Notes under the pieces: model-generated
What the model was told of the DNA's origin: nothing
Database searches by the model: none
The model's input: the letters and a program-made list of their open reading frames with translations, nothing else
Part shown: piece after piece, positions 1,560 to 57,028 of the stretch
How positions within the stretch are numbered: position 1 is the first letter of the stretch
Layout of the letters: each line of letters opens with the position of its first letter
Position numbers and translations under genes: made by a program
Source of the DNA: Bacteroidaceae bacterium
GTDB lineage: Bacteria; Bacteroidota; Bacteroidia; Bacteroidales; Bacteroidaceae
DNA: 58,443 nucleotides
NCBI GenBank assembly: GCA_017429525.1
Contig: JAFROT010000029.1
Location: 1-58,443 of the forward strand
Direction: 5' to 3'

Positions 1560-1669
1560 TCTCATCGGTGAGACAAACGAGTCTCATTAATGAGATAGGT
1601 CGGATCAAATAGATGAAAGGCTGACGACGAACGCACGAAAGAACGGCGACGAGCGCACGAAAGAATGGC
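1560..1669 (+). repeat. 22-bp period tandem array E (5 units)
   Basis: Units start at 1560, 1582, 1604, 1626 and 1648. The last two differ at only two positions (core CGCACGAAAGAA). The first two share TCTCAT-n3-TGAGA and each contains a dyad: TGTCTCA/TGAGACA at 1558-1575 and the perfect palindrome TCTCATTAATGAGA at 1582-1595. The middle unit matches the fourth at only about half its positions. The spacing and the CGNNCG-NACG-AAAG core resemble the arrays at 22015 and 56853. Confidence 0.55.
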
Positions 1670-2152
1670 GTAGAACGGGCGACAATTCCCGTGGGAGCAA
1701 TTGAACGGGGGTGGCATGCATGAACCGTTGTGGACCTGAATTGTTAAAACAGGCGTTAATAAAGTTTAAATCCTTCACCTTTCACCCCATCCTTCACCCT
1801 GTCTTTCACCCACTATATCACTGGATATTAAACAAATACGTACCAATGTGAAGGCGTGAAAGATAAATAGCGCAAAATAATAAGGTAGGTAAATGCACTA
1901 GAATAGCTTATACAATAAATTAATGGAGATTGACGTTTGGATTGATGTCGATTGACGTCTAAATCAAAATCCAACAATAGTTTTATTTGACGTCCGCTCG
2001 GCGCTTGCATGCTATGCTTTGGGGTTAAAAGCTCTGGCGAAACAGAAGCTTGCGAAAATTGAGCGGTGAAAAAACATGTGACCACTTTATGTCATTTCAA
2101 TGTCATTTGCGGAGAAATGATGAAAAAGGTGCAGGAATAAGAAAAAAATGCT

Positions 2153-2160
2153 TACTTTTG
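2153..2160 (+). promoter_or_regulatory. -7 box giving a near-leaderless transcript
   Basis: TACTTTTG, an exact consensus match ending 8 nt before the ATG at 2169. Transcription would begin almost at the start codon. This rules out the upstream in-frame ATG at 2148, which precedes the box. Confidence 0.6.
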
Positions 2161-2168
2161 CATTCGTA

Positions 2169-2744
2169 ATGAAGAAAGAGTACGAGAAACTGCTGAATGC
2201 CATTGAGCAGGAAGTAGGCAAGAAACTGCTGACACCGAAGGACTTCGAATGGCTGTCGGCGAAGGTGGAGGCGAGCACAAAGGCACACCTGAGCGAGTCG
2301 ACCCTGATGCGGCTGTGGGGCTACCGAACAAGAGTCGGTACGCGGCAGTCGACGCTCGACATTCTGTCGCGCTTCCTGGGCTATGCCGACTACGCGACGT
2401 TCTGCCAGTGGAAGCCTACGGGCAGGGGAAAGGATATAGAGAGCGACGAGGTGATAGCCCGCCACTTGCGCACAGCGGAACTGAAGGCAGGCACACGGTT
2501 GGTGCTGACGTGGTATCCTGAACGGCGCTGCGTGGTAGAGTTGCTCGATGATGGCTTCTTTAAGGTCTTAGAAGCAGAGAACACCCGGCTCTGCGTGGGC
2601 GACAAGTTTGAATGTAGTCTTATCGTGGAAGGCGAGCCTTTGTACATGAGCCAATTGGTTCATGAGGATAAGATGCCAATGGTGTATGTGGCCGGAAAGG
2701 TGAACGGGGTTCACTTCAGCTATCTCTCTGAAGTCGAGGAATAG
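2169..2744 (+). CDS. Conserved Bacteroidetes protein with HTH-like N-terminus
   Basis: 191 residues. The N-terminal 75 residues carry the pattern LLTPKDFEWLSAKV...LSESTLMRLWGY...TLDILSRFLGY, typical of a family very common in Prevotella and Bacteroides. It looks like a small helical, probably DNA-binding, domain. The C-terminal half has the family's conserved block LTWYPERRCVVELL...VLEAENTRLCVGDKFEC, a beta-rich segment of unknown role. No enzyme motif is seen. The start is placed at 2169 because a -7 box lies at 2153-2160; the earlier ATG at 2148 cannot be transcribed from it. The 3' end overlaps the convergent kinase gene by 25 bp. A decayed copy of its promoter region lies about 960 bp upstream. 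A regulatory role is inferred, not shown. Confidence 0.65.
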   Translation: MKKEYEKLLNAIEQEVGKKLLTPKDFEWLSAKVEASTKAHLSESTLMRLWGYRTRVGTRQSTLDILSRFLGYADYATFCQWKPTGRGKDIESDEVIARHLRTAELKAGTRLVLTWYPERRCVVELLDDGFFKVLEAENTRLCVGDKFECSLIVEGEPLYMSQLVHEDKMPMVYVAGKVNGVHFSYLSEVEE

Positions 2745-3970
2745 GTGTTGAGCGTCTCCTCGGCATAGTGGGTCACGTAATGTTCATGGTTCTTGATGAG
2801 AAACTTCGCACGTCGAACGATGTTGTCGTGCCATTGCTGCCAGCGGTCGAGCATCTGCTGGAGCACGTGCAGGCGCTCATCGTCGGTGAGGTCGGGGAGT
2901 GAGTCGAGGGCATAGTCGTAGGCGAAAGCATTGACGGAAAGGATCTTCTCATTAATCTGCGGATCGAGGTATTTCCACTGCGAGATGGTGTCCATCTGGC
3001 GGTTAAGTCCCGTTTCGGCTATCCGATGGTCGAGCTGGTTCAGGGCTTGCGACGTGATGGCGGGGAGCCGGTTGAGTTCGTTGAAGATGAGGCCCTGCCG
3101 AGCCGAGAACTGATGCCAGAGGACTGTACCTATGATGGTCAGCAGGAGGACGGGCACCGCAATGAATGATGCCAGGCGAAGACGCGAGGCCAGCTGGCGA
3201 TGGTTGGCAATCTCGTCCTGCATGGCAGCGACATTGGGGTAGCGCTGGTCGATGGGCAACGTGCAGCGGCGAGCCACATCAGCCCAATAGCCTTTCAGGG
3301 GCAGCTGGCCTATGATGACACCAACGGAATAGATGTCGTTGCGCCCGTCGGGAACAGTGCCGGTAGTCTGCTCGGGAGCCATATACTGACGGGTACCTGA
3401 GGGCTGCTTGAGGTAGGCATGGCTGTCGGTATCGGCAAGCGAGAAGTCGATAATCTTCACGTGCTGCCCGTTGCGGGTAATCATGATGTTGGAGGGCTTC
3501 AGGTCGCGATGAGTGACCGATGAGGCATGAATGTAGGACAAGGCATCGAGCAGTTCGTCGATGATGCGCTCGCAGGTCTTCGCACTGGTCAGCTGGTCTT
3601 CTGCCATCAAGTCGCTGAGGGCATCGCCTTCTATGAATTCGAGCACCAGACATTCGCCTACTGAGACCTGGCGACCTACGCTGTCGGTATAATCATCGAG
3701 GTGCTCAAGCCCCAGACAGCCTACGATATTGGGGTGGTTGAGTTGCATGAGCACTTCCATCTCCTTGACAAGCATCTGCCGATGGAACGTGCTGCCACGC
3801 AGCTCTGGGAGCAGCGCCTTGAGCAGATACCAGCGTCCGAAGCGCTTGGCACGGAAGAGCTGGTGGGTTGCCGTCTGCCGATAAAGGGTCACCTCAGTAA
3901 AACCGCGATGGAGCGATTCTGCCGTTTCGGTCACGTAGCCCGAGAAGGAGTCGTCTGAAGGTCTTTCCAT
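2720..3970 (-). CDS. Membrane-anchored Hanks-type Ser/Thr protein kinase
   Basis: 416 residues. The kinase domain covers about residues 20-260: K51 in WYLLKALL (VAIK lysine), E70 of helix C, catalytic loop HRDLKPSN at 154-161, APE at 198-200 and DIYSVGV for subdomain IX. A single membrane helix lies at about 266-286, followed by an approximately 130-residue helical domain without a recognised fold, probably periplasmic. Two things are odd: the glycine-rich loop has no glycines (LYRQTATHQLF), and the magnesium-binding DFG is DFS (175-177). The first is shared with a Bacteroidetes kinase family I recognise, while the DFS may lower activity. The start at 3970 lies 16 nt after the stop of the leucine-rich gene and is preferred over the ATG at 4039, which would overlap that gene. 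It forms an operon with 3987-4637. Confidence 0.75.
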   Translation of the reverse strand: MERPSDDSFSGYVTETAESLHRGFTEVTLYRQTATHQLFRAKRFGRWYLLKALLPELRGSTFHRQMLVKEMEVLMQLNHPNIVGCLGLEHLDDYTDSVGRQVSVGECLVLEFIEGDALSDLMAEDQLTSAKTCERIIDELLDALSYIHASSVTHRDLKPSNIMITRNGQHVKIIDFSLADTDSHAYLKQPSGTRQYMAPEQTTGTVPDGRNDIYSVGVIIGQLPLKGYWADVARRCTLPIDQRYPNVAAMQDEIANHRQLASRLRLASFIAVPVLLLTIIGTVLWHQFSARQGLIFNELNRLPAITSQALNQLDHRIAETGLNRQMDTISQWKYLDPQINEKILSVNAFAYDYALDSLPDLTDDERLHVLQQMLDRWQQWHDNIVRRAKFLIKNHEHYVTHYAEETLNTYSSTSER

Positions 3971-3986
3971 GTCGAGACTTGTCGTA

Positions 3987-4637
3987 TTATTCGTTTTGGA
4001 GTCCGTTATCACCTTGATAAAGGGGTATGGTCTCAGCATGATAGCGGAAACGGTAGCAGAGAGGATTGTTGAGATAGTCGTCGGCCGACTGGGCGGGGAG
4101 TACGACCGTGGCCATCTGGTAGGTCAGTTCATCGAAGGTGTCGTTGTTGTAGCTCTTGGGAGGCTTGGCAGGGTGCATGACAATGCGGCGCAAGCCTGTG
4201 CAGCCGATGAAGGCACGGGGATAGAACACCCGAAAGCTGTCGGGGATGACAATCTGGCGCAGCGACTTGCAGTCCTGAAACGACAGGTCGGAGACGCAAT
4301 AGAGGGTGGAAGGGAAATGGACTTCCTTGATGCCTCCGCAATTCTGGAAAGCACCTCGGGCAATCCATCGCATAGGTATCTGCCGTCCATCGGCCACCGT
4401 GATGCTCTCGGGCAGGAAGATCTCGCCTACGAAATCAGTGGGGAGGGCCGGATGGTCGTATTCTTGATAGCCCACAGCCACGCCAAGGCCGTCGCACCCT
4501 GGATCATTGCCCACATGAAAGGCCATCGGCACCATGCCTTTGCTGGTGCGGACGAGATGCTGAAACGGCGGCTCGTCCTGCGTGAGGCAGAAGGCGGAAA
4601 TGAGGAGCAGACAGGATAAGGAAAGGATGCGCTTCAT
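3987..4637 (-). CDS. Secreted BspA-like leucine-rich repeat protein
   Basis: 216 residues with a signal peptide (MKRILSLSCLLLISAFCLTQ). No proper lipobox is seen, so it is probably periplasmic or secreted. Residues about 75-170 hold LRR_5-type repeats: IPMRWIARGAFQNCGGIKEV, then LSFQDCKSLRQIVIP, then RAFIGCTGLRRIVMH. The C-terminal DDYLNNPLCYRF is the usual terminal strand of such proteins. LRR_5 proteins bind proteins or glycans in relatives. The gene is the first of a two-gene operon with the downstream membrane kinase, so the LRR protein could act with the kinase's outer domain; that is inference from gene order only. A -7 box lies at 4703-4710. Confidence 0.7.
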   Translation of the reverse strand: MKRILSLSCLLLISAFCLTQDEPPFQHLVRTSKGMVPMAFHVGNDPGCDGLGVAVGYQEYDHPALPTDFVGEIFLPESITVADGRQIPMRWIARGAFQNCGGIKEVHFPSTLYCVSDLSFQDCKSLRQIVIPDSFRVFYPRAFIGCTGLRRIVMHPAKPPKSYNNDTFDELTYQMATVVLPAQSADDYLNNPLCYRFRYHAETIPLYQGDNGLQNE

Positions 4638-4702
4638 TGTGAGTCAGATGAGCCGGTTCTTGTTTACAATCCAAGGCCACGTAGCGGCCTGCAATCTGGT
4701 TG

Positions 4703-4710
4703 CAAAGTTA
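4703..4710 (-). promoter_or_regulatory. -7 box of the LRR-kinase operon
   Basis: TAACTTTG on the minus strand, exact consensus. The expected leader is about 60 nt to the ATG at 4637. Confidence 0.55.
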
Positions 4711-4827
4711 CGAAAACAGCAGAAAATGCCAAAGAAAATCAGCTGAAATTGGTACAAAAACGAGGTTCGCGGCAAATTCTGGTAGGAGAAAGGTGACCTT
4801 GAGAGCAGAATTGTGCGTAGCAGCACC

Positions 4828-4857
4828 GAAAAAGGGCGGCCCACATGGGTCGCCCTT
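4828..4857 (-). terminator. Intrinsic terminator after tsf
   Basis: Stem AAGGGCG (4832-4838) pairs with CGCCCTT (4851-4857) around a CCCATGTGGG inner dyad. Read on the minus strand it is followed by a run of T. It closes the ribosomal protein/EF-Ts transcript about 40 nt after the tsf stop codon. Confidence 0.75.
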
Positions 4858-4898
4858 CATCAGATGTATTGCAAAAATGATTTGCTCAACGGGAATGT

Positions 4899-5894
4899 TT
4901 ACTCGGCGCGGAGGGTGAAGCGCTTGAAGGCGGTCACGGTGAGCTCCTTGTCGATGCTGTGGAGGTACTGAGCGACGGTCTGGTTCTTGTCCCAGATATA
5001 CTCTTGCTCGAGGAGGCAGTTCTCCTTGAAGAACTTCTTCAGACGGCCCTGAGCGATGTTCTGAATCATCTGCTCGGGGAGGTTGGCAGCCTTCTCCTCG
5101 GCAACCTTCACCTTGAGTTCGCGTACCATAGCAGCCTGCTCGGGGGTGATCCAGCCCTTAGCCATGTTGCTCTCGATGTGGTCGTCGCTGTCAACGTGTG
5201 CGGGGTTGACGCCAGCCTTGCGGATAGCGGCCTCGACAGCCTTGGCAATCTGCTCTTCCTTGGTCTTCTCGACGGCAACACGGAGCTCGCTGTCGATAGT
5301 CTCCTGAGGAACGGCGGTCTGGTCGATGGCCACGGGGTTAGCGCTTGCAATCTGCATAGCAACATTCTTACCGACGGTAGCATCTTCAGTAGCCTTGTTG
5401 AGGGCAACCATGACGCAGAGGGTGTGCTTGTTCTGGTGGTCGTAGGTAGCGATGTTCTCGCCTTCGACTACGCAGTAGCCGTCGAGTTCCATCTTCTCAC
5501 CCGTGATACCGCTACGAGCGACAACGGCGTCCTGAACGGTGCCTTCGCCCATGGGCAGAGCCTTCACCTCGTCGAGGGTCTTGCAGCGAGCTGCAACAGC
5601 GGCGTTGATGATTTCCTGGGTAAGAGCGACGAAATCGGCGTTGTTAGCGACGAAGTCTGTCTCGCACTTGAGGGCGATGATAGCGGCAAAGTTGCCGTCG
5701 ACCTTCACGAGAACGCAACCTTCAGAAGCCTCGCGGTCGCTACGCTTAGCAGCAACAGCCTGACCCTTCTTGCGGATGATCTCGATAGCGCCGTCGATGT
5801 TACCCTCGCTCTCCTCGAGAGCCTTCTTGCAGTCTGCCAGACCTGCACCAGTCATCTCGCGCAGCTTCTGGATATCTTTGATTGATACAGCCAT
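4899..5894 (-). CDS. tsf: Elongation factor Ts
   Basis: 331 residues. EF-Ts exchanges GDP for GTP on EF-Tu in the cytoplasm. The N-terminal UBA-like domain (IKDIQKLREMTGAGLADCKKAL) and the signature LKCETDFVANNADF are clear. Two core dimerisation-type subdomains follow, giving a length near that usual for Bacteroidetes and longer than the E. coli protein. It lies downstream of rpsB in the conserved order rpsB-tsf, with a 156-bp gap filled by an inverted-repeat element. No promoter of its own is visible, so it is probably cotranscribed from the rplM promoter. Confidence 0.97.
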   Translation of the reverse strand: MAVSIKDIQKLREMTGAGLADCKKALEESEGNIDGAIEIIRKKGQAVAAKRSDREASEGCVLVKVDGNFAAIIALKCETDFVANNADFVALTQEIINAAVAARCKTLDEVKALPMGEGTVQDAVVARSGITGEKMELDGYCVVEGENIATYDHQNKHTLCVMVALNKATEDATVGKNVAMQIASANPVAIDQTAVPQETIDSELRVAVEKTKEEQIAKAVEAAIRKAGVNPAHVDSDDHIESNMAKGWITPEQAAMVRELKVKVAEEKAANLPEQMIQNIAQGRLKKFFKENCLLEQEYIWDKNQTVAQYLHSIDKELTVTAFKRFTLRAE

Positions 5895-5900
5895 TGTAGT

Positions 5901-6033
5901 AAAATGAAAAATGAAAGAATGAAAAATGAAAAATAAATTTTACCTGTGCGAGCAGTGGGAGTCTGTGAAGAAAGTGAAGAATGTCAAGTGATTATTATTT
6001 ATCACTTTTCACTCTTTCACTTTTCACTTTTGA
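5901..6033. repeat. Inverted-repeat element in the rpsB-tsf gap
   Basis: The left arm (about 5901-5938) is built of GAAAAAT/GAAAGAAT heptamer-like repeats. The right arm (about 6000-6033) is its imperfect complement (CACTTTTCACTCTTTCAC), nearly all mismatches being G/A changes that still pair as G-T in RNA. It has the same design as the elements at 37886 and 49278 and could act as an attenuator between rpsB and tsf. Confidence 0.5.
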
Positions 6034-6050
6034 ATCGCTCGCGAATCAGG

Positions 6051-6845: not shown

Positions 6846-7201
6846 AATTGTTTTTAATTGGTGAGTCGGACAAGTAGACAAGTTGACGAGTTGTTAGTTG
6901 ACGAGTAGACAAGTTGTTAGTTGCAAGTTCTTCTCATCGAAACGAACAGGGCTCGGCAGGACGAGTTGTCAGTCCTCTTGTACATTGTTCAACTCGGGTG
7001 GTTTACTTTCTTTTTTGTTGTTTCTCAACCAACCTCACGGTAGTCCACGGGGAATCCGTAAGGTTTAGATACTAAACACTGTCATATTTACGATTCCAAG
7101 ATTTACGATTTACGATTATGCTCCTTTGCCTCTTGGATGCCGAAATCCGTAAGCAGTGAAAGATAAAAAGTAAAAAGTAAATTCGTAAAAAGTAAATCGA
7201 A
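6846..7201 (-). other. rpsI-rpsB gap with stem-loops and short repeats
   Basis: No gene. An inverted repeat AACCTCACGG/CCGTAAGGTT (7031-7063, one mismatch) could end rpsI transcripts or form part of an S2 leader. Nearer rpsB, CGAGTTG...CAACTCG (about 6962-6996) forms another stem. GACAAGTTG/GACGAGTTGTTAGTTG units repeat at 6869-6923, and ACGATTTACGATT-like and GTAAAAAGTAAA repeats occur at 7090-7200. No TAnnTTTG box was found on the minus strand. Confidence 0.45.
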
Positions 7202-7588
7202 TCAGCGCTTGCTGAACTGGAAGCGACGACGAGCCTTGGGCTGACCGGGCTTTTTACGCTCAACCTCACGGGGATCGCGTGTCATGAAGCCTTCAGCACG
7301 GAGAGCTTTCTTGTCCTCAGCATTGATCTTGACGAGTGCGCGGGCGATAGCGAGACGGAGTGCCTGGCTCTGCCCGGTGTAGCCTCCGCCGAAGAGATTC
7401 ACCTTGACATCATACTTCTCAGCGACGTCGAGCAGGTTCAGAGGCTGCTTCACGACATACTGGAGAATGGTGCTGGGGAAATACTCGGTCAGATCCTTCT
7501 TGTTGATGGTAATCTTACCAGTGCCCTCTGTTACATAAACGCGGGCAACGGCGCTCTTGCGGCGTCCTAATGCATTTACTACTGCCAT
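7202..7588 (-). CDS. rpsI: 30S ribosomal protein S9
   Basis: 128 residues, full length. It has the S9 pattern: NALGRRKSAVARVYV at the start, KDLTEYFP, LFGGGYTGQSQALRLAIARAL, and the basic tail KPGQPKARRRFQFSKR, whose last arginine reaches the P-site tRNA in the ribosome. It follows rplM with only 6 nt between the genes, the universal rplM-rpsI pair. Confidence 0.98.
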   Translation of the reverse strand: MAVVNALGRRKSAVARVYVTEGTGKITINKKDLTEYFPSTILQYVVKQPLNLLDVAEKYDVKVNLFGGGYTGQSQALRLAIARALVKINAEDKKALRAEGFMTRDPREVERKKPGQPKARRRFQFSKR

Positions 7589-8435: not shown

Positions 8436-9155
8436 ATGAGACATCATAGCATCATCAGCCGCCCAGTCAGCCTCATCATTCTGGCTCTCGCCCTCCTGAC
8501 CACGGCCTTCACCGCCTGCAGCAAAGGCGAGACCTACGCCGACCAGAAGGAGAAAGAGCGCAAGGCCATCAACAAATTCCTCAACCGCGATGTCGCCATC
8601 GTGAGCAATGAGGGCGACACCGTCATCCACGTAGGCCACATTAACGTCATCAGCGAGTCGCAGTTCTTTCGCCAGGACAGCCTGACCGACGTCTCGAAGA
8701 ACGAATACGTGCTCTTTGCAGGCACTGGCGTCTACATGCAGATCGTCCGCCCAGGCGTAGGCGAGAAGCTGCAGAGCGGACAGACAAAGCGCGTCATCAG
8801 CCGCTACCTGGAGTATAACATTCTGACGGACACCATCCAGTCGCGTTCGGACATCCTCTATTACTCCACCACCCCCGACATCATCGACATCACCAACAGC
8901 TATGGCACTTTCACCGCTTCGTTCAACACCGAGAACGGCGGCGGCGCGATGTACCGAATTTACGGCAACAGCACCGTAGTGCCTTCGGGATGGCTCATTC
9001 CCTTCACCTACATACGCATAGGACGTCAGATGACAGCCGACGACCAGATTGCCAAGGTGCGTCTGATCGTCCCTCACTCGCAGGGACAGGCCAACGCCAA
9101 GAGCGGCGTCTATCCCTGTTTCTACGAAATCACCTTCCAAGAGATGCGTAACTGA
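8436..9155 (+). CDS. DUF4827-type lipoprotein
   Basis: 239 residues from MRHHSIISR. A lipoprotein signal peptide ends in FTAC with the acylated cysteine at about position 28, so the protein should sit in the outer or inner membrane facing the periplasm. The conserved N-terminal block YADQKEKERKAINKFL and the segments NEYVLFAGTGVYMQIVRPG and AKVRLIVPHSQG fit the DUF4827 family, which has an FKBP-like fold in Bacteroidetes. No isomerase activity can be claimed. ATGs at 8424 and 8400 are alternative starts; 8436 gives the most normal signal peptide. The gene is divergent from rplM, a neighbourhood I recognise from other Bacteroidales. A 22-bp repeat array begins one base after its stop codon. 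Confidence 0.75.
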   Translation: MRHHSIISRPVSLIILALALLTTAFTACSKGETYADQKEKERKAINKFLNRDVAIVSNEGDTVIHVGHINVISESQFFRQDSLTDVSKNEYVLFAGTGVYMQIVRPGVGEKLQSGQTKRVISRYLEYNILTDTIQSRSDILYYSTTPDIIDITNSYGTFTASFNTENGGGAMYRIYGNSTVVPSGWLIPFTYIRIGRQMTADDQIAKVRLIVPHSQGQANAKSGVYPCFYEITFQEMRN

Positions 9156-9156
9156 A

Positions 9157-9266
9157 GCGACGCGACCGGATGCAACAAGCGACGCGACCGGATGTAGCAA
9201 GTGACGCGACCGGACGTAGCAAGCAACACGACTGGACGCAACAAGCGACGCGACCGGATGTGTGGC
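9157..9266 (+). repeat. 22-bp period tandem array A (5 units)
   Basis: Units start at 9157, 9179, 9201, 9223 and 9245, exactly 22 bp apart. The core is GCGACGCGACCGGA followed by a CAACAA/TAGCAA tail. Most differences are single C/T or G/A changes. The array starts one base past the stop codon of the DUF4827 gene, so it is transcribed as its 3' untranslated region. A further single degenerate unit (GACGCGACTGGACATGAGC) lies near 9398-9419. Confidence 0.75.
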
Positions 9267-9300
9267 ACGATGCCTCAAAAGGTGCATGCCGAAACGTCTG

Positions 9301-9342
9301 TATAAGAGAGGTGGATCACCATGGTGGTCCACCTCTCTTATA
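9301..9342. terminator. 42-bp palindrome, bidirectional terminator
   Basis: TATAAGAGAGGTGGA (9301-9315) is perfectly complementary to 9328-9342, and the centre CACCATGGTG is itself a palindrome. Only one pair is mismatched. It lies between the convergent DUF4827 and GH30 genes. U-runs are weak on both sides. Confidence 0.6.
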
Positions 9343-9448
9343 TAGATGAATTACGCGATTCATCTGTATGTTTTACACGTTTTGTCCAGATGCGTCGCTC
9401 GACGCGACTGGACATGAGCGGCGATTCATGCAGGAGCAAGAGTCCGAG

Positions 9449-21968: not shown

Positions 21969-22014
21969 CGCTCCTTCTGGTCGATTGGAAGGAAAGAATG
22001 AGAGACCTCCAACA

Positions 22015-22190
22015 TGCATCTCCAAACGCATGCCCTTGCACATACTCATCTTCAGGCCTGCCCGTATATATGTAAAGGCCTACACGTATATATGTAAAGC
22101 CTTGCACGTATAAACGTATCGCCTCTCACGTATATACGTGAAAGACGATGCGAGCGGACGTGAAAGACGATGCGTATGGACGATCAAGGC
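22015..22190 (+). repeat. 22-bp period tandem array B (8 units)
   Basis: Units start at 22015, 22037, 22059, 22081, 22103, 22125, 22147 and 22169. Spacing stays exactly 22 bp while the sequence drifts from CGTATATATG cores to CGAGCGGACG cores. The sixth unit contains the perfect palindrome CACGTATATACGTG. Conserved elements are CG or TG steps eight bases apart, then AAAG, then GCC or GAC. It follows the terminator at 21936 and lies between convergent genes. Confidence 0.75.
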
Positions 22191-22241
22191 CGACTTACAG
22201 GTAAGTTTGCTGCGAAGAAGAAACGGACTCGACAGGGATGC

Positions 22242-37885: not shown

Positions 37886-37968
37886 GAAAGAAAAGTGAAA
37901 AGTGAAAAATAAGAATTACGCTCAGCAGAAGGAGGTAACCCATATTTTTCACTTTTCACTTTTCTTTT
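37886..37968. repeat. Perfect long inverted-repeat element after rseP
   Basis: AAAAGTGAAAAGTGAAAAAT (37891-37910) is perfectly complementary to 37944-37963, and pairing extends outward through 37886 and 37968, giving about 24 bp. The centre has TTAC (37916-37919) facing GTAA (37935-37938). Further TTATCACTTTTCAC units follow to about 38010. It lies between convergent genes and could terminate both. Confidence 0.7.
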
Positions 37969-37997
37969 ATCACTTTTCACTTATCACTTTTCACTTA

Positions 37998-38474
37998 TCA
38001 CTTTTCATTCATCACTTCCACCTCCTCGCTCTTGTCGATGTCGATCTTGCGGACGTAGAACTTCGCCTTCGCACAGAGCTCATCAAAATGCTGCTGCATC
38101 TCGAAGAGAAGGCGTTGCTGCTCATAATACGCCTCATTCGTGCGGCCCGCAACCCGCGGTTGCATACTCGCGAAGCGCTCCCGCTCACGATTAAGCACCT
38201 GCTCATAGCTTGCCACGCTGTCACGCGTCTGCAGCAGCTCTATGCTATCCAGCGTCAAGATAGCCGCCCGACGAACGTTCAAGGCCGTTGGATGGTGCTG
38301 ACGTAGGCTGAAAATGGTGTCACGCGCAGCCGTATAGCGCTTCTGATCCAAGAGCTGGCGCGCCTCGTCAAGCAATTTTCCTGCCGAGACCTCAGCCAAT
38401 TCCTCGCTGGCCTTACATCCCGTGAGGGCCACCAAAAGCGAGAGCAACAGATATGAATAGCCGTGATATTTCAT
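37998..38474 (-). CDS. Small coiled lipoprotein, unknown function
   Basis: 158 residues from MKYHGYSYLL. Lipoprotein signal LLSLLVALTGC with cysteine at 20. The rest is helical and charged, with one TPR-like segment (GKLLDEARQLLDQKRYTAARDTI, about 31-53) and a long coiled region (EQVLNRERERF to DELCAKAKFYV). The family name is not recognised with certainty; similar lipoproteins are common in Bacteroidales. The start at 38474 follows from a -7 box only 10 nt upstream; the in-frame ATG at 38534 lies before that box. Confidence 0.7.
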   Translation of the reverse strand: MKYHGYSYLLLSLLVALTGCKASEELAEVSAGKLLDEARQLLDQKRYTAARDTIFSLRQHHPTALNVRRAAILTLDSIELLQTRDSVASYEQVLNRERERFASMQPRVAGRTNEAYYEQQRLLFEMQQHFDELCAKAKFYVRKIDIDKSEEVEVMNEK

Positions 38475-40385: not shown

Positions 40386-40420
40386 GGCTGTTTATAGCTC
40401 ATTACTGGTTCTGAGTCTCG

Positions 40421-40574
40421 TCACGACCGCTCGCGAGGCCCTTCGCCTCCATATGTGAGACCCTTCACGACCGTTCGCATCGCCCTTCACGACTGTTCGC
40501 ATCGCCCTTCGCGACCGTTCGTAAAAGGCCTCACGTACGAATGTGCAAGACCTCGTGACTATTTGCTCTAATCA
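40421..40574 (+). repeat. 22-bp period tandem array C (7 units)
   Basis: Units start at 40421, 40443, 40465, 40487, 40509, 40531 and 40553. Units 3 and 4 differ at one position (core CACGACCGTTCGCATCGCCC). Unit 2 has the different core CCTCCATATGTGAGACCC, which also opens array D. The last unit is degenerate. The rest of the cca-cyclophilin gap (40575-40775) shows no gene and no further period. Confidence 0.78.
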
Positions 40575-40775
40575 TCTCGCATCTTCAGGAAGATTCGGAA
40601 GTATGCTAATCCTCATTGAGCCAAAGCTACGGCGGGCCTGAGAGGGATACACAAAAGTGTCTAATCGACAAAAGGTCGAGCGGCCAGCCATTATCAGAAG
40701 CCTACGGCATCAACTGCAAAACCTCAGAAAAGCATAGACGAACGCGCAAGCAAAAGGACTGGAAAGAAACGGGAA

Positions 40776-49277: not shown

Positions 49278-49425
49278 ATGACGAATAATATAATGAAGAA
49301 TGAAGAATAAGGATTACCTTTTGAATGTGCAGGTAACTTGTATTCGTCATTTATCATTCGTCATTCGTCATTATATTATTCGTCATTTGTCATTCGTCAT
49401 TCGTCATTATATTATTCTTCATTCT
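49278..49425. repeat. Inverted and tandem repeats between tamL and the sulfatase
   Basis: AATGACGAATAATATAATGA, starting at 49278, has perfect complements in the right arm, where the TCATTATATTATTCGTCATT block sits inside a roughly 38-bp tandem duplication (about 49358-49420). The centre holds TTACC (49314-49318) facing GGTAA (49331-49335). It has the same plan as the elements at 5901 and 37886, with different arm sequence. Confidence 0.6.
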
Positions 49426-51097: not shown

Positions 51098-51132
51098 AAT
51101 CCTCCCCCATCCGAACCGGACGAGGGAGGATT
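51098..51132. terminator. Terminator hairpin between convergent genes
   Basis: AATCCTCCC (51098-51106) pairs with GGGAGGATT (51124-51132). On the minus strand GTTTTG follows. A second imperfect stem (ACGGAG/CTCCGT, about 51028-51061) lies nearer the sulfatase gene. Confidence 0.55.
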
Positions 51133-51177
51133 CTTCTATGGTTTGAACGTTAATCGCCAGACAATGGTCATCAGTCG

Positions 51178-54100
51178 CTACTTGACGAGAACCTTGCGGC
51201 CACGAGTGATGTAGAGGCCGTTCTTAGCGGGCACGATGACACGGCGGCCACCGAGGTCGTAGATGTTCTCGTTGCCAGCAAAGGTCTTGTCGGCATCGGT
51301 CGTGATGGCACGGATAGCGTCGCTCAGCTGCGTACCGCACGTCAGGACGAGGTCGGCCGTCTCACCCGTAGGCTGGCAGAGGCTGGCACGGATGTAACCG
51401 CTAAGGCCAGGAATCGTAGTGATGCGTTCGGTCGTAGCGGCGACCTTATTATTGCGGATGTATCCGAGGCCCTCCTCCTCGAGGTCGATGCCTCCGATGG
51501 CGCTGACGAGTCCGTTGGCTTCAACCGATGCGAGCGGGTCGACCTCCGTGGGACGCGGGACGAAGAGGTTCTCCGTGGGATGCTCGGCCGTCTCGTCCTC
51601 GAAATCACCGAAGGTCAGGATGAAGGCTTCGCCAGCGGCGATGGCCTCCTTCTCGACGAGTTCCAGAGTGGTCGTGCCGTCATCGTTGACCACGACAGCG
51701 CTAAGGCCGTAGGTGTGGGCGTCGCCTGCGCTAAGCTTGGATAGGCTGCGGTCCTCAGGAATATCGAAGGGCAGCGACATGATGCTGACGGTGTTCATCT
51801 GAACGGGCATCGTGAGCACCTGAGTGTCGAGCACTTCCTTGAGCGTCCAGCAGGAGGCGTTGCCATGCTCCTCGCGCCAACCTACCAGCGGGGCGCCGTT
51901 GCGCTCTTGAGCATGAAGCGGCACGTAGCTGCCGTTGACGTTCAGGCTGTCCTGCGAGAAGAACAGCAGCTCGCCTGCACCGTAGTACTTGATGAGATAA
52001 GGATAGGGCTCCTCGCACTGTACGGGGCGTCCGTCGCCGTCACCGACAATCTTAGTCGGGCCGACGTAGTGACCCGTTGCCATGTTCTGGATAGCTACGA
52101 AGTCCGTACCTTCGATGGGCACGAAACGCCAGAAGGCATTGGCAGCGTCGCCGTAGGTAGCATCGTCGTTCTCAAGGTCGTAGTAGCCGAAGGTGATGGG
52201 GTCGCCGATGGCATAGTCCTTCGTGGCGATAGCCTTGCCCGAGCAGTAGCCGTTGACGATCGTCACCACTTCATTACCCTCTTCATCGTAGGAGATACTC
52301 TCGCTCCACTTGGCTGCGTTGACGATATTGTACCAATGGTTCATCTCAGGCATGCGCACCTTCGATTCGAGGGTGGCCATGGCGTCCGTGAGTTTGACGA
52401 CCTCGGCGTCCATCTGCGGCTGGAGGGTGTGGCCGTAGGCTACCTTCTCAGCAGCATCGGCAGCAGCGGCGAGGGTCGTGATGATGTCCTGCGAAGGCAC
52501 GTAACCGAAGTCAGTGCCGACAGCAGCATGAGCCACCATGTCGCGTGCATCGGCAATCTTGGCGCGGAGCTCGTCGTTGTGGACGTAGGAGCTGTCCAGC
52601 TTGGCCAGAGCCTCCTCGAAGGCCTCGATGTCGCGCGGCCAGATATCATACTTGTCCTTGTCCTGATTCTCGGCAATGAGCTGTGCCAGACGGTCGGCCC
52701 AGAACTTGACATCAGGTACGTAGGCGTACTGAATCTCGGAGGCGTCGACCTCGCGAATCAGTTGGAACTCGGCCAGCGTGAAGAAGCACATGCCCTGCAG
52801 GTCGTGACGGTCCATCGTCCCCGACGTGTTCATCCACGTGTCGTTGACCACCATGCGGATGTAGCGGTGGCCGCCGAAGTCGATGTCCTCCGACGTCCAC
52901 TGGAGCATCGGCTCCCCGGGCAGACCCTCGTTGATATTCATGAGGAAAGTCCAGTCGTCCGACGAACTGAGCACGTTGCTGCCGATCTCGTCGTCGTTGG
53001 TCACGTAGAGGTCGATGTCCTGCGGCATATCGAAATAGTAGCTGTTGCGGCCCACCAGACGCAGCTTGGCAGTGGTGAGGGGCTCGCCCATGTCGACCTG
53101 CAGATGGTGCTTGGCGCCGTAGGTGCCGTCGGGGTTCTGCGCGCCGTCGTCCCAGTCGGTCGAGAAGTGGCTGCCGAAGTCGCCGTCGAGGATGCTGTTG
53201 AACGAGCCTTCGCGGATCTTGGAATTAGCCTGGAACTGCGAGCCGTCGTGGATCAGCTTCGTGATGGTCTCGGTAGCATCGTTGTAGGCCTTCTCAGCCT
53301 CGGGCAGCAAGCTGGCCAGCTGCTGGGCAAGTTTCGTATGGTCGACGTAGAGGTCGTTGACCGCCTTGACAGCCTCTTGGAGGGCATTGACGTCGGGACG
53401 CGTGATCTTGTCCTTACGCGCCAGTTCCTCCTTGATGGCAATCAGTTTGTCGACGGCTTCCTTCATGCCCTCGGCATTGACGTACTGCGAGTGGACCTTG
53501 TCGTAGTCGTAGGAATAGACTTGGAACTCCGACATCGTGAAGTAGTGGATGCCTGTGTTGCTGTTGGTGCGGTGCATGTAGGTGTCGAGCACCTCGAACT
53601 TGAGGTAGCGGTAGGGCGTAGCCGGACGAATCTCGGGCGAGACGTAGGTCATCGTGACGTCCGTGGGGAATCCGCTGGTGGGATGTTCAATCTCAGTCCA
53701 CGTGCTGGGATCGTCCCACGCGCTGATGTCGTTGGAACCGTAGACGATCACGTCCAGCGGGATATCCAGGTACGCCGAGTTGCGGGGCGTGAAGGTCCAG
53801 AAGAAGCGCTCGGCCGCCGTGCCCAGGTCGGCGAACAGGGCGTGGTTGTCGCTGGTCATGGAGTTGGCGGCATTCGTGGACCACTCCGAGTGGAAGAAGT
53901 TGCCCGTGTTGCCGTCGATGAGGTTCTCGAGCGAGCCCTCGTTGTGCTCCAGAGCGTTGGACCATAGCTGCGACACCGAGGGGTCGTTGTCGTTGGAGAC
54001 GGTGGTGATGTACGGCACGTACTCCATCGACGACATCACGGCCTTGTTGGCCTCGAGCATCGCTGCATTGTAGTCGCGCTGGATGCTCGCGTCGTCGCTG

Positions 54101-55500
54101 AGGGCCTTGACACGCTCGAACTCCTCGTCGCTGACGGGATAGATGTACCATACGCTGTTGGGCTCGTCGGCATTACCCCAAGGCACGATATAGCCTTCGG
54201 TACCCGCGCCGCCGTTGTGGCTCTCGGTGTGATACGGGACGTTGTACTTCGTGTTGAAAATCGTGAAGCGTCCGATGGTCCTCGAGGCAATGATCTGCTC
54301 GGTTGTCTGCTCCTCGACCATCGGCACGTGCGAGCTCGTGGCGGCAATATAATCTATATAGGTACCCGTGGACATGCTCTGGATGGAGAAGTTACCATTG
54401 TCGAGCAGGGTGAAGCGCCAGATGGCCGCCATGTCGTCGGGGTCGTAGGTGCCCCAGCGCAGCCACTTGCCGTCGTCGCTCGGACGCATCGCCTTCTCGA
54501 CGCCCTGATTGATGTAGTAGGCATCGTTGGAGCTGATGATGCGGTAATAGCCCGTGCCCAGCTTGATCTGCGAGGCCACGAGGGCCGCGTAGGTGGCGCG
54601 CAGCTGCAGGATCATCTCGTCGACCTCCTCGTTGGTGGGGGCCTGCGAGGGCATGGCGTCAGCAGCCACGATGGCACGCTCAAACACCTCCATGAACGCG
54701 TCGACCTCCTCGGCTCCGTAGAAGCCCGGTGTATCGCCCTTGAACTCGTCCTGGATGCCGTACATCTGCATGCCCAGGTTGTAGAAAGGCTCAAGCGCGA
54801 TGTTCAGGCGCTCCTGCGGGTCGTCCACCAGGCGAGCAGGATAGAGCTGCATCTCGGCCATATTCCAGAAGTACTGGCCGTAGGTGCCCTCCGTGCGGCG
54901 GCTGAACGTGCGGTTGACCACCATGCGGACGTAGCGGTACGCGCCGTCGAAGGTGATCATCGGGCTGGTGTACTCCTGCCCCATCATGTCGCTCGTGCTG
55001 CCATACCGCGAGAACATATCGGTCAAGTGGATAGCCTCGGTCCACGACTTAGCCTCGTCGGGCGTGTTGGTGACGAGGATGGTCACGTCGTCGGGCGTGT
55101 CGTTGTAGGCACTGTTGCGGATCGTCCACGTGAAGAAGATGGCCGTCTGCGGGTCATCGAGTTCAAACTGTATCCAGTGCTTCTCGGCCGGATAGAGGTT
55201 GTTGATGGTCTGCTGGTTACCCTCCTCGTCGGTGATCGTCGAGGTGGGACCGTAGGACGAGTGGAACCACGTGCCCGCATCGCCGTCGATGAGGGCGTCG
55301 AGGCCACCGCCGTCGCTGTAGTGGATAGCGTTGACCGTCATCTGGTCGGCATAGCCAATCAAGGGCGATTCCAGGTCGGGCGCATAGATGTCCTCGACCG
55401 TCTCGCCATCGCCCACCAACGGCGTCGTGGGCGCTGCAGCCTGCACCTGCCAGCCCGCGAGGAGCAGCAGTGCGGCAAGGATGAGTCTCAGTTTCTTCAT
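51178..55500 (-). CDS. Very large secreted protein with three discoidin-like domains
   Basis: 1440 residues with a signal peptide (MKKLRLILAALLLLAGWQVQA). Three F5/8-type C (discoidin) domains are visible at about 45-225, 500-690 and 785-960. Each opens with a DGxxxTxFHS-type turn (LIDGDAGTWFHSSY, LIDGNTGNFFHSEW, ILDGDFGSHFSTDW) and ends with an YRYVRMVVN-like strand. Helical spacers with repeated pattern follow each (VDAFMEVFERAI, MKEAVDKLIAIKEEL, IEAFEEALAKL). Ricin-like regions occur at about 310-450 and 1090-1210. No catalytic domain is recognised, so a glycan-binding or adhesion role is the best guess. The tail IYDLGGRRVIVPAKNGLYI...GRKVLVK matches those of GH30 and the Omp28-like protein. 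Confidence 0.75.
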   Translation of the reverse strand: MKKLRLILAALLLLAGWQVQAAAPTTPLVGDGETVEDIYAPDLESPLIGYADQMTVNAIHYSDGGGLDALIDGDAGTWFHSSYGPTSTITDEEGNQQTINNLYPAEKHWIQFELDDPQTAIFFTWTIRNSAYNDTPDDVTILVTNTPDEAKSWTEAIHLTDMFSRYGSTSDMMGQEYTSPMITFDGAYRYVRMVVNRTFSRRTEGTYGQYFWNMAEMQLYPARLVDDPQERLNIALEPFYNLGMQMYGIQDEFKGDTPGFYGAEEVDAFMEVFERAIVAADAMPSQAPTNEEVDEMILQLRATYAALVASQIKLGTGYYRIISSNDAYYINQGVEKAMRPSDDGKWLRWGTYDPDDMAAIWRFTLLDNGNFSIQSMSTGTYIDYIAATSSHVPMVEEQTTEQIIASRTIGRFTIFNTKYNVPYHTESHNGGAGTEGYIVPWGNADEPNSVWYIYPVSDEEFERVKALSDDASIQRDYNAAMLEANKAVMSSMEYVPYITTVSNDNDPSVSQLWSNALEHNEGSLENLIDGNTGNFFHSEWSTNAANSMTSDNHALFADLGTAAERFFWTFTPRNSAYLDIPLDVIVYGSNDISAWDDPSTWTEIEHPTSGFPTDVTMTYVSPEIRPATPYRYLKFEVLDTYMHRTNSNTGIHYFTMSEFQVYSYDYDKVHSQYVNAEGMKEAVDKLIAIKEELARKDKITRPDVNALQEAVKAVNDLYVDHTKLAQQLASLLPEAEKAYNDATETITKLIHDGSQFQANSKIREGSFNSILDGDFGSHFSTDWDDGAQNPDGTYGAKHHLQVDMGEPLTTAKLRLVGRNSYYFDMPQDIDLYVTNDDEIGSNVLSSSDDWTFLMNINEGLPGEPMLQWTSEDIDFGGHRYIRMVVNDTWMNTSGTMDRHDLQGMCFFTLAEFQLIREVDASEIQYAYVPDVKFWADRLAQLIAENQDKDKYDIWPRDIEAFEEALAKLDSSYVHNDELRAKIADARDMVAHAAVGTDFGYVPSQDIITTLAAAADAAEKVAYGHTLQPQMDAEVVKLTDAMATLESKVRMPEMNHWYNIVNAAKWSESISYDEEGNEVVTIVNGYCSGKAIATKDYAIGDPITFGYYDLENDDATYGDAANAFWRFVPIEGTDFVAIQNMATGHYVGPTKIVGDGDGRPVQCEEPYPYLIKYYGAGELLFFSQDSLNVNGSYVPLHAQERNGAPLVGWREEHGNASCWTLKEVLDTQVLTMPVQMNTVSIMSLPFDIPEDRSLSKLSAGDAHTYGLSAVVVNDDGTTTLELVEKEAIAAGEAFILTFGDFEDETAEHPTENLFVPRPTEVDPLASVEANGLVSAIGGIDLEEEGLGYIRNNKVAATTERITTIPGLSGYIRASLCQPTGETADLVLTCGTQLSDAIRAITTDADKTFAGNENIYDLGGRRVIVPAKNGLYITRGRKVLVK

Positions 55501-55635
55501 AGTGCGTTAGTTGAATGATTAGGTTGAATAGGTTAGTTTTATGTCTTGGTTCGTCTTCATGGCTCAGGCATTAGGCGGTCAACGAGATGAAGTCAATCGC
55601 CTGTCGGAACCCCGCCGAGCGCCGTTTTACCATAG

Positions 55636-55643
55636 CAAAGGTA
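55636..55643 (-). promoter_or_regulatory. -7 box of the discoidin-protein gene
   Basis: TACCTTTG on the minus strand; leader of about 130 nt. The divergent promoter at 55815 and this box are the only recognisable items in the 369-bp gap 55501-55869. Confidence 0.6.
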
Positions 55644-55814
55644 AGGCAGAATCGACTTGTAGCTACAAAGAGGTTGTTAAAAAATTTAAAACGAAAGCAA
55701 ATAAACCTTTTTTGAGTGTCAAACGCCCACTCTTTCAAGCCTATCTCAGCGGCTTAACATCAAATAAGCCGTCACTTTTTTCACCTTTTTTGCTTGCAGT
55801 TCAGAAGAAATATG

Positions 55815-55822
55815 TACCTTTG
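55815..55822 (+). promoter_or_regulatory. -7 box of the nucleotidyltransferase gene
   Basis: TACCTTTG; leader of about 40 nt to the ATG at 55870. Confidence 0.62.
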
Positions 55823-55869
55823 CGGGCAGAAATCCAGAAATCAATCTTTTTAACTAAAACAAAACAGAC

Positions 55870-56781
55870 ATGAAACCAACTCTTTTCCTCCTTGCTGCCG
55901 GCATGGGCAGCCGCTACGGCGGCCTCAAGCAGCTCGACGCACTCGGCCCCAACGGCGAGACCATCATGGACTACTCTATCTACGACGCCATCCAGGCAGG
56001 CTTCGGTAAGATTGTGTGGGTCATCCGTCGCGACTTCGAGGATCAGTTCCGCAACCAGATCCTGAAGAAGTACGAAGGTCAGGTGCCCTGCGAACTCTGC
56101 TTCCAGGCCCTCGACGACCTCCCCGAAGGCTTCAGCGTTCCCGAAGGCCGCGTCAAGCCCTGGGGCACTAACCACGCCGTGCTCATGGGCAAGGACGTCA
56201 TCAAGGAGCCCTTCTGCGTCATCAACTGCGACGACTTCTACAACCGCGACGCCTTCATGACCATCGGCAAGTTCCTCGCCGAGCTGCCCGAAGGCTCCAA
56301 GGGCAAGTACGCCATGGTAGGCTTCCGCGTGGGCAACACGCTCTCTGAGAACGGCAGCGTGGCACGCGGCGTATGCGGCAAGGATGCCGAAGGCAACCTG
56401 ACCGACGTCGTGGAGCGCACCGAGATCGAGCGCATCGACGGCGAGATCTGCTACAAGGAAGACGGCGAATGGAAGCCCGTCGGCGGCGAGAACGTACCCG
56501 TCTCGATGAACATGTGGGGCTTCACGCCCGACTACTTCGCCTACAGCGAGGAGTACTTCAAGGAGTTCCTCTCCGACCCGAAGAACATGGAGAACCTCAA
56601 GGCCGAGTTCTTCATCCCCCTCATGGTCGACAAGCTCATCCGCGAAGGCACTGCCACCGTCAAGGTCCTCGACACCACCTCCAAGTGGTTCGGCGTCACC
56701 TATGCCGCCGACCGTCCCGGCACCGTAGAGCGCATCAAGCAGCTCGTCGACGAGGGCGTCTACCCCTCACCCCTCTTCTGA
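55870..56781 (+). CDS. Sugar-phosphate nucleotidyltransferase family protein
   Basis: 303 residues. The N-terminal FLLAAGMGSRYGGLKQLD is the nucleotide-binding loop of NTP-transferases (GlmU/RfbA/MurU type), with PWGTNHAVLMG and VINCDDFYN as substrate and metal motifs (D in NCDD). GNTLSENGSVARGVC and MNMWGFTPDYF are conserved in the Bacteroidetes subgroup. It should join a nucleoside triphosphate to a sugar 1-phosphate, but the sugar cannot be named. In relatives the gene sits beside a sugar kinase of the aminoglycoside-phosphotransferase type; here it stands alone, with its own promoter and terminator, directly before the rRNA operon. Confidence 0.8.
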   Translation: MKPTLFLLAAGMGSRYGGLKQLDALGPNGETIMDYSIYDAIQAGFGKIVWVIRRDFEDQFRNQILKKYEGQVPCELCFQALDDLPEGFSVPEGRVKPWGTNHAVLMGKDVIKEPFCVINCDDFYNRDAFMTIGKFLAELPEGSKGKYAMVGFRVGNTLSENGSVARGVCGKDAEGNLTDVVERTEIERIDGEICYKEDGEWKPVGGENVPVSMNMWGFTPDYFAYSEEYFKEFLSDPKNMENLKAEFFIPLMVDKLIREGTATVKVLDTTSKWFGVTYAADRPGTVERIKQLVDEGVYPSPLF

Positions 56782-56805
56782 ACCACCTCCCCCCACATCA
56801 ACGAT

Positions 56806-56841
56806 AATCCCCCGTCGCACAATCCTGCAGCGGGGGATTTT
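56806..56841 (+). terminator. Intrinsic terminator after the nucleotidyltransferase
   Basis: AATCCCCCG (56806-56814) pairs with CGGGGGATT (56831-56839), ending in TTTT. Confidence 0.85.
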
Positions 56842-56852
56842 CAGTCTATCCT

Positions 56853-57028
56853 GAACCTCCATACGCGAGCCCCTTCACGACCGCATCTTCAGCCCTTAAC
56901 GACCGCACGTGAAAGCCGTTGCGACCGCTCCTTCAGCCCTTAACGACCGCTCGTGAAAGCCGTTGCGACCGCTCGTGAAGGGCTACACATATAGACGCAT
57001 CGCCCTGCGCGACTATATGTGTGCGTTA
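56853..57028 (+). repeat. 22-bp period tandem array D (8 units)
   Basis: Units start at 56853, 56875, 56897, 56919, 56941, 56963, 56985 and 57007. Units 3 and 5 are nearly identical (AACGACCGCTCGTGAAAGCC), and units 4 and 6 share GCGACCGCTC, so a two-unit (44-bp) higher-order repeat is visible. Unit 1 (CCTCCATACGCGAGCCCC) matches unit 2 of array C. Units 7 and 8 contain CACATATAG and its complement CTATATGTG. Confidence 0.8.

Follow-up and report, generated by a model that had tools for sequence, protein, structure and literature searches.

Intergenic arrays of symmetric 22-bp units in rumen Prevotella-like bacteria keep their spacing while their letters change by species

Introduction

Contig JAFROT010000029.1 of a Bacteroidaceae bacterium (assembly GCA_017429525.1), the whole 58,443-nucleotide stretch of which is here called the window, carries intergenic arrays that repeat every 22 bp while the units themselves differ in sequence. 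What could hold such a spacing while the letters change? The original prediction, made from this DNA alone, described five such arrays and attributed their constant period to selection on spacing rather than to recent slippage. Here we report that the arrays are members of one genome-wide family, the unit sequences of which differ between genomes. In rumen Prevotella-like bacteria the spacing of 22-letter symmetric units is kept, and the letters change by species. The arrays, the fixed register of which we refer to as a lattice, may represent a non-coding DNA platform for a putative cooperative dimeric protein, a reading that we hold tentatively, at somewhat less than an even chance.

Results

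Arrays with a 22-bp period in the window

The window was scanned at lags 8-59 with an 88-bp window and a self-match of at least 60%. Loci were returned only at lags 14, 21, 22, 36 and 44. Four of them had lag 22 (9113-9303, 22003-22196, 40394-40582 and 56859-56992), and each of the three lag-44 loci coincided with one of these, while lags 14, 21 and 36 reflected repeats of other kinds, located at 37.9 kb and 49.3 kb. The array predicted at 1560-1669 surfaced only at a self-match of 50/88 and gave an E-value of ~0.1 with the family model described below, and is therefore the weakest member. Four of the five predicted arrays are thus strong and one is weak. The elements of the lattice in the window are as follows.

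1560..1683, no strand: weak array; two palindromes, TCTCATCGGTGAGA and TCTCATTAATGAGA, at a distance of 22 bp, followed by units of the CGAACGCACG / CGAGCGCACG kind
9163..9272: five-unit array of the CGACCGGATG type in a convergent-gene spacer
9301..9342: long palindrome TATAAGAGAGGTGGATCACCATGGTGGTCCACCTCTCTTATA, near-perfect and with its centre on the lattice; core at 9309-9334
9339..9426: second array segment, in register with the first at a distance of 8 x 22 bp
22063..22194: array of CGTATATACG / CGAGCGGACG units in a convergent-gene spacer
40424..40555: array of CGACCGTTCG units between convergent pcnB and cyclophilin genes (pcnB standing here for a gene of the poly(A)-polymerase/tRNA-nucleotidyltransferase type)
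56856..57031: array of CGACCGCTCG units, which also shows a higher-order repeat of 44 bp
57026..57047: perfect 22-bp palindrome TTATTCGGTCGCGACCGAATAA, in register, closing the array 56856..57031
57048..57371, minus strand: non-coding leader repeat with a 132-bp part, a CG/TG tract and the inverted repeat CTACACTTTAGCAC...GTGCTAAAGTGTAG

When the units were printed in phase, they showed the predicted frame of CG, six bases, and CG or TG. As had been stated, the arrays at 9.2, 22.1 and 40.4 kb lie between convergent genes, and the last array lies ahead of the rRNA, between a plus-strand open reading frame (ORF) ending at 56781 and the 16S rRNA gene starting at 57924. The segment 9339-9426, the palindromes at 9309-9334 and 57026-57047, and the repeated leader at 57048-57371 are additions to that description.

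The 22-bp period is in excess in this genome and its relatives

When the window was combined with 361 kb from elsewhere in its genome (20 stretches), again at a self-match of at least 60%, 15 lag-22 loci were detected, as compared to 0, 8, 1, 2, 0 and 6 loci at lags 20, 21, 23, 24, 25 and 28, respectively. The scan was also performed outside long ORFs (66-bp window, at least 42 matches). There, 554 kb of the own genome contained 14 lag-22 loci, with 0/11/1/2 loci at lags 20/21/23/24 and 13 at lag 14. In ten same-genus genomes without a model match (none at E<=0.01 in a first scan or at 1e-5 in a stricter one; 356 kb), lag 22 was found 13 times and lags 20/21/23/24 were found 0/3/2/0 times. The corresponding numbers for 80 named pcnB loci (1.48 Mb) were 29 and 2/16/6/5. 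A sample of 20 other Bacteroidales families yielded no lag-22 and no lag-21 loci in 273 kb, several stretches being short; the probability of finding no lag-22 locus there would be 5e-5 at the same-genus rate and 0.005 at the pcnB-locus rate.

Lag-21 loci were the most frequent neighbours, and nearly all of them overlapped a lag-7, 14 or 28 locus, that is, an array of heptads (10/11 in the own sample, 3/3 in the same-genus genomes and 13/16 at the pcnB loci). None of the lag-22 loci did so (0/14, 0/13 and 0/29). Since the lag-21 loci are nearly all heptads, the excess of lag 22 over neighbouring lags holds once these are set aside, and the even spread over lags 20-24 against which the prediction had been set was not found. 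Tandem Repeats Finder, applied outside long ORFs to periods of at least 9, likewise returned 22 as the commonest period (n=12 in the own sample); at the named loci, period 22 was found 28 times, followed by periods 11 (n=15), 21 (n=11), 14 (n=9) and 23 (n=6). Enrichment of lag-22 loci is thus seen in this genome, in others of its genus and in further Prevotellaceae. Period 11 was also raised outside long ORFs (15 arrays at the named loci).

The heptad class, which underlies most lag-21 loci outside long ORFs both in this genome and in relatives, is represented in the window by arrays of TTTTCAC/TTATCAC, ATTCGTC and AAAATGA (37946-38017, 49342-49423, 5901-5934, 6002-6031, 7086-7117 and 7159-7196). 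The omega ribbon-helix-helix (RHH) protein binds WATCACW heptads, which the window heptads resemble in look.

One genome-wide family with units that differ between genomes

A family model of 80 columns was built from 22 array stretches taken in both orientations. In this genome it gave 224 matches at E<=0.1 from 150 scored candidates out of 1104, with strands counted apart and overlapping matches included. At E<=0.01, matches were found in 8/61 genomes including its own, and none in 24 genomes of other families. With stricter filters, the own unit type was present in 32/139 genus members, including the own genome, at E<=1e-5. Genomes without a model match still bear lag-22 arrays of other unit sequences, such as TTGCATCTACATGTAGATGCAA in genome G076, TGGTTnnnnnnAACCA in G016 and TTAACC...GGTTAA in G011. 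Among named species, arrays lie in contigs of Hallella mizrahii (L099:7651-7837) and Segatella baroniae DSM 16972 (L126:11473-11635); the L099 array did not pass the dyad test given below.

A position-weight scan of 91 loci of this genome (741 kb including overlaps; the genome measures 3.3 Mb) identified 82 distinct arrays with 469 units, each array being 3-12 units long with a mode of 5. Because the scanned loci overlap and many were fetched on a model match, the 82 arrays are not an estimate of density. Reversed sequence gave 5 arrays against 90 (the 82 distinct ones) and shuffled sequence gave 0. The scorer was built from a symmetrised alignment and favours symmetric units.

The array reads as alternating half-sites

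The unit of this genome reads C-G-W-M-Y-R-K-W-C-G, followed by a 12-bp spacer of the TGAAGGCCTTCA type. Each position is constrained in its own way. Over the 469 units, frame columns 1-5 were C in 95%, G in 78% (A in 18%), A/T in 100%, A/C in 93% and C/T in 98%, and columns 6-10 were A/G in 97%, G/T in 93%, A/T in 99%, C in 80% (T in 18%) and G in 93%, which are percentages from a scorer that itself prefers those letters. Single positions accordingly display a near-strict two-letter degeneracy. The column composition is unchanged on reverse complementation (r 0.97), and the dyad was significant by permutation both in 22 unsymmetrised training rows (z 5.8; 22 stretches of 15 arrays, phased likewise by symmetric score) and in the 469 units (z 6.2).

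Within single units of this genome, one half varies, overall, independently of the other. Complementarity about the core was 0.490 versus 0.508 expected, complementarity about the spacer was 0.493 versus 0.513, and re-dealing the halves within their own arrays made no change (0.490 versus 0.492). The repeating paired RNA structure that had been suggested as one cause of the spacing is thus not reflected in overall covariation between halves in this genome. Because the column make-up is symmetric and the halves are independent, the array reads as a series of 11-bp half-sites in alternating orientation. The half-site of this genome is R-K-W-C-G-Y-R-W-A-G-S; dyads recur at intervals of 11 bp, and two half-sites make up the complete 22-bp unit.

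The register extends across gaps, palindromes and leaders

Separate segments located within 300 bp of an array were in phase with it modulo 22 in 6/7 cases, the seventh being off by one (p 6e-8 versus 1/22). The register therefore spans degenerate gaps, and it also holds the shared palindromes. Palindrome TTATTCGGTCGCGACCGAATAA occurs in 33 copies in this genome (20 exact), with 0 in the backward control. Of the 33 contexts, 31 were examined, and each of these is flanked on one side by an array in register (3-unit score 26-61); on the opposite side all 31 remained below the array threshold of 17, with a score of 14.9 in one (locus L266).

The second palindrome, GTGGATCACCATGGTGRTCCAC, which forms the core at 9309-9334, was found in 14 copies here (<=3 mismatches) and in 12/139 genus genomes including this one; the control was 0 among those listed. 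It stands in register with rows that differ by genome, although 5/26 loci were not demonstrably centred. These rows are symmetric about the exact centre of GTGGATCACCATGGTGRTCCAC, which ranked 1/22 among possible axes (0.338 versus 0.250, standard deviation 0.003). This result covers 138 rows, perfect-palindrome rows being left out, from 18 loci of 11 other genomes; the remaining 5 of the 23 non-own loci were left out as off-centre at contig ends or lacking a pattern match. In G078, GTGGATCACCATGGTGRTCCAC is paired at six listed places, with a distance of exactly 66 bp each time. A palindrome variant, GGTGGATCACCATGGTGGGACACC, is present in at least 11 identical copies among the places listed for G077, which suggests recent spread.

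Leader homology of up to ~325 bp was detected in 15/31 arrays linked to TTATTCGGTCGCGACCGAATAA, with a pairwise identity of ~60-88% and a mean identity of only 68% over the leader rows; the 132-bp part resembles lattice rows, as judged by eye only. In 14/15 copies the distance between the palindrome and the landmark of row -3 was exactly 66 bp (no such landmark was found in L155). The landmark of row -6 was at 126 bp in 11/15 copies and at 148 bp (+22) in L036. The claim that spacing is conserved and sequence is not is borne out by the genome-wide recurrence, by 6/7 gap phases, by most leader copies and by the unrelated units of other genomes. A coding function of the leader was rejected, as the shared reading frame is interrupted by stops in several copies and the three codon phases were conserved to a like degree (identity 0.68, 0.71, 0.66). 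The leader inverted repeat CTACACTTTAGCAC ... GTGCTAAAGTGTAG, with arms ~90 bp apart, was seen in the window (57048-57371, minus strand) and at L261, L262 and L264, as was the alternating CG/TG tract ACGTGCGCGTGCGCGCG, for which Z-DNA is possible.

Arrays prefer the spacers between convergent genes

Genes were called on both sides of 70 arrays; these flanking genes were convergent for 37 arrays, co-directional for 22 and divergent for 11. The background of 142 gaps of at least 130 bp, which includes array-bearing gaps, comprised 25, 81 and 36, respectively. The preference for convergent gene ends is pronounced (Fisher p 3e-7; divergent p 0.12). Gene orientation was taken from a codon-usage ORF caller, and a further 9/82 arrays were at edges and 3/82 inside predicted genes. 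Terminator-like hairpins were found between gene end and array at 9/38 sides, versus 1.5 in shuffles, and within the array in 3/38 (no control). These counts refer to 32/37 convergent arrays, secondary segments being left out.

The position beside pcnB was followed in relatives. Downstream of pcnB in 79 named loci (L115 of the 80 being too short), lag 22 was best in 3 (L075, L078 and L126). With the family scorer at a lowered threshold, 16 relatives gave two matches near pcnB, neither adjoining its 3' end: one in L148 (14.3, ~1 kb past the 3' end) and one in L149 (21.1, on the 5' side). The family model, applied to 15 of the 16 (L153 lacks the pcnB 3' end), matched L149 only; both tools detect the unit type of this genome only. 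Downstream of pcnB, L124 carries an 11/22-bp array from 11555 and L076 carries 20-bp direct repeats from 11562.

An all-versus-all comparison of 2014 near-array frames returned, by eye, array or leader translations and ordinary paralogues but no mobile gene beside the arrays, no family search being made. At gathering score, Rfam recognised in the window only the small-subunit (SSU) rRNA and an L13-Bacteroidia ribosomal protein leader (RF03127; 8144-8214, minus strand), and the arrays were without a match. The window further contains 69-bp repeats at 524-698, within a BspA-type leucine-rich repeat (LRR) frame.

Discussion

A proposed platform for a dimeric protein and rival readings

We consider cooperative binding of a dimer the best reading of the lattice, because spacing and symmetry are kept with changing sequence, both strands are alike, and the arrays occupy convergent spacers. 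A dimeric DNA-binding protein would fill successive dyads cooperatively along one face of the helix, for which the chain of alternating 11-bp half-sites would provide a dyad every 11 bp and a unit of 22 bp, or two DNA turns. The spacing would be selected because 22 bp aligns adjacent dimers, and the unit sequence would drift because the specificity of the protein varies by species. The near-invariant palindromes may then be strong anchor sites, and the likely outcome would be a protein block between convergent transcription units, acting as a roadblock, an insulator or a chromosome-organising site. To our knowledge, little is known about chromosome organisation and convergent-gene insulation in the Bacteroidota. 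We are more doubtful about a broader proposal, namely a Prevotellaceae-wide class of sites in which the 11/22-bp lattice is conserved and the sequence is not. Such a class would have lineage-specific half-site dictionaries, presumably co-evolving with a fast-changing dimeric protein, which in each genome would cover the spacers at tens to hundreds of gene ends.

Several observations weigh against the platform. Single arrays of this genome passed the dyad test (p<0.05) in 5/14 cases only, as compared to 10/13 in the same genus and 14/29 at named loci. Control periods passed as well (own, genus and named loci, respectively: period 14, 3/13, 2/5 and 5/17; period 21, 3/11, 2/3 and 4/16; period 23, 0/1, 0/2 and 1/6; period 28, 3/7, 2/2 and 6/10), so that the dyad alone is not peculiar to period 22. 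The independence of the halves is not complete either, as core-dyad pairs 1 and 3 match above expectation (z 3.3 and 2.5) and pair 2 below it (z -3.4). Among the leaders, L171 and L155 have the row -6 landmark at 85 and 112 bp, respectively, and none was located in L045; outer landmarks shift by -2, -4, +14, +20 and ~+60 in single copies, and gapped alignments of 105 leader pairs contain 118 gap events versus 3337 substitutions. The position of an array beside pcnB is not conserved among relatives, and no binding protein was identified, the Y1 transposase being the only protein family searched for. Lastly, in G120, G130, G143 and G157 (the last taken by elimination to be the source of L245 and L253) the halves of one unit match each other better than they match those of adjacent units (0.44-0.60 versus 0.29-0.41), which counts against the platform because one protein of a single specificity would not need matching halves. 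Matching halves in some relatives are the trace expected either of small hairpins or of several dimeric proteins.

If the former, each 22-bp unit would be a small hairpin with a 5-bp stem, a 4-nt loop and an 8-nt linker, acting in single-stranded DNA, in a cruciform or in RNA, for instance at transcript 3' ends. Complementarity in G130 is concentrated mostly 3-7 bp from the dyad (0.527 versus 0.382 re-dealt, z 6.8, for rows within +-4 without selection), G120 behaves alike (z 4.4), and within-unit complementarity exceeds that between units in 14/18 loci of other genomes (mean 0.465 versus 0.369). For G130, G120 and G152, the predicted folding of either strand is also more stable for the actual units than for units with re-dealt halves (z -2.8 to -4.8), and whole arrays fold better than shuffled ones, at -0.322 versus -0.254 kcal/mol per nt for 62 own arrays and -0.329 versus -0.267 for G130. 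In this genome, however, re-dealing the halves makes no difference and the units fold slightly worse than re-dealt ones (z 1.7 to 3.4). The predicted stability is only ~-3 kcal/mol per unit and the same on both strands, terminator-like hairpins are confined to the minority of sides given above, and the fixed 22-bp phase across degenerate gaps would be left unexplained. Small hairpins are therefore, in our estimate, an unlikely basis of the arrays. A similarly low probability is assigned to a selfish or neutral minisatellite, in part a leader-array element like BrickBuilt, that is best tolerated between convergent genes and the period of which is held by whole-unit slippage and gene conversion. 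The recurrent ~325-bp leader, the 44-bp higher order and the variable presence beside pcnB all fit such an element, and BrickBuilt consists of a leader, 23-nt repeats and a tail (PMC4596501). Moreover, 75 BLAST matches were found among 162 flanks of different arrays (several per pair), and flank sequence common to different arrays favours spread by copying.

Turnover by whole units can in fact be seen. An orthologous array of the close genomes G130 and G143 differs by exactly one 22-bp unit plus 6 substitutions over 328 aligned bases, while in another orthologous array (L294/L305) the gaps, of 1 and 3 bases, and 25/27 substitutions are located outside the array rows, which is in favour of the platform. 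The predicted conservation of spacing is thus upheld, but its opposition to slippage is not, since slippage or recombination works by whole 22-bp units and units may turn over although the period stays constant. Mere copying would nevertheless not be expected to produce a two-letter constraint per position with independent halves, or a phase kept across gaps that are no longer unit-like. The convergent-gene setting would also suit gyrase or another wrapping protein that reads helically phased bendability, a mode of recognition ascribed to Escherichia coli gyrase at its strong sites, and the length of a gyrase wrap is about that of 4-8 units (88-176 bp). Phased G/C is the feature named for strong gyrase sites in the literature (PMC12393610). 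Phased bending was rejected as a general property of the arrays: relative to column-permuted controls, the power at period 11 was not clearly raised in 37 arrays of other genomes (roll 0.88, pyrimidine-purine (YR) steps 1.32, GC 0.81; standard error 0.16-0.22). In the 82 own arrays, roll (0.31) and GC (0.59) were below controls and YR steps alone were raised (2.19, standard error 0.11). The signal of helical turns that the prediction had considered is thus not clear elsewhere and limited to YR steps here, and a wrapping protein is very improbable.

In G130 and G143 (L290-L292 and L304), the different perfect or near-perfect palindromes TTTTTGCCACTGGTGGCAAAAT, CGAGTTCCACCGGTGGAACTCG and CTTTTCTCACCAGTGAGAAAAC share a single 22-bp register, as would result if specificity had changed while the arrays gained units; 2/10 G130 loci without a centre were dropped from this comparison. 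For the dimeric-protein platform, a phase that is kept while the letters turn over between species offers a direct experimental handle and predicts a 22-bp footprint. At least 82 sites are available for such experiments in this genome, and GTGGATCACCATGGTGRTCCAC, common to several genomes, could serve as an anchor for partner capture.

Comparison with known systems

No description of 22-bp arrays in Prevotellaceae was recognised among the listed papers of the open-access literature. The statement that no such element was known in Prevotellaceae was nevertheless too strong, as PINSR has been described in this family (PMC4755523) and BrickBuilt is close in design (PMC4596501). By description BrickBuilt and PINSR come nearest, and by arrangement REP/BIME. 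In breadth, the lattice belongs to the intergenic palindromic repeats. Since none of BrickBuilt, PINSR and REP/BIME agrees with it on all features tested, we regard it as a member of none of them.

REP elements and BIMEs are species-specific extragenic palindromes, BIMEs being regularly spaced in alternating orientation, and they lie 3' of genes, between convergent or unidirectional ones (PMC2817692, PMC3733652, PMC6006769). Palindromic units in regular alternating orientation were likewise found here, and they are extragenic, with the 3/82 arrays inside predicted genes mentioned above. REP/BIME elements differ, however, in their RAYT (Y1) transposase, their GTRG or CGTC tag and the complementary changes in their stems (same sources). 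The period here is 22 bp, no such tag was evident by eye in the printed units, and complementary stem changes are not seen overall in this genome (G000), whereas they are present in G120, G130, G143 and G157. A REP system driven by RAYT was rejected, as a PF01797 search revealed no full-length Y1 transposase in G000, with the proviso that such a gene could be missed because the assembly is 86% complete. The single match there covers 47 positions (22.7 bits) in a 433-aa frame and is over the cut-off only together with its neighbours. Among 23 same-genus genomes including G000, any match was found in six and a strong one only in G012 and G021. A CRISPR-like division into repeat and spacer was not apparent by eye in the printed units, cas genes not being searched for.

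PINSR, a 188-bp repeat of the Prevotella intermedia/nigrescens group with 177 and 184 copies in two strains, resembles the lattice in being non-coding, intergenic, lineage-specific and without terminal inverted repeats, and it belongs to the same family (PMC4755523). It is unlike the lattice in being a dispersed repeat with a single consensus for which no 22-bp sub-structure is reported in that text, a comparison by description only.

BrickBuilt of Porphyromonas gingivalis is close to the arrays in design: its imperfect tandem repeats are intergenic and dispersed, each repeat measures about two turns of the helix and has dyad symmetry, and the element has a one-sided leader, changes copy number by whole units and is found in the same bacterial order (PMC4596501). 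A leader adjoins 15/31 of our palindrome-bearing arrays. BrickBuilt differs in its 23-nt unit, its up to 22.8 units, the one unit consensus of its 19 loci, its IS5-like 12-bp terminal inverted repeats and its occurrence in P. gingivalis and P. gulae, and neither in-register invariant palindromes nor a half-site lattice are reported for it in the sections consulted (PMC4596501). Its period is not that of the lattice, which shows lag 22, with a single lag-23 locus in this genome. P. gingivalis W83 is also mentioned to carry 22-, 23- and 41-nt direct repeats (PMC4596501); those of 22 nt share the period of the lattice and its order, Bacteroidales, a likeness by mention only. The lattice may thus link two isolated reports, BrickBuilt and PINSR, to a wider phenomenon.

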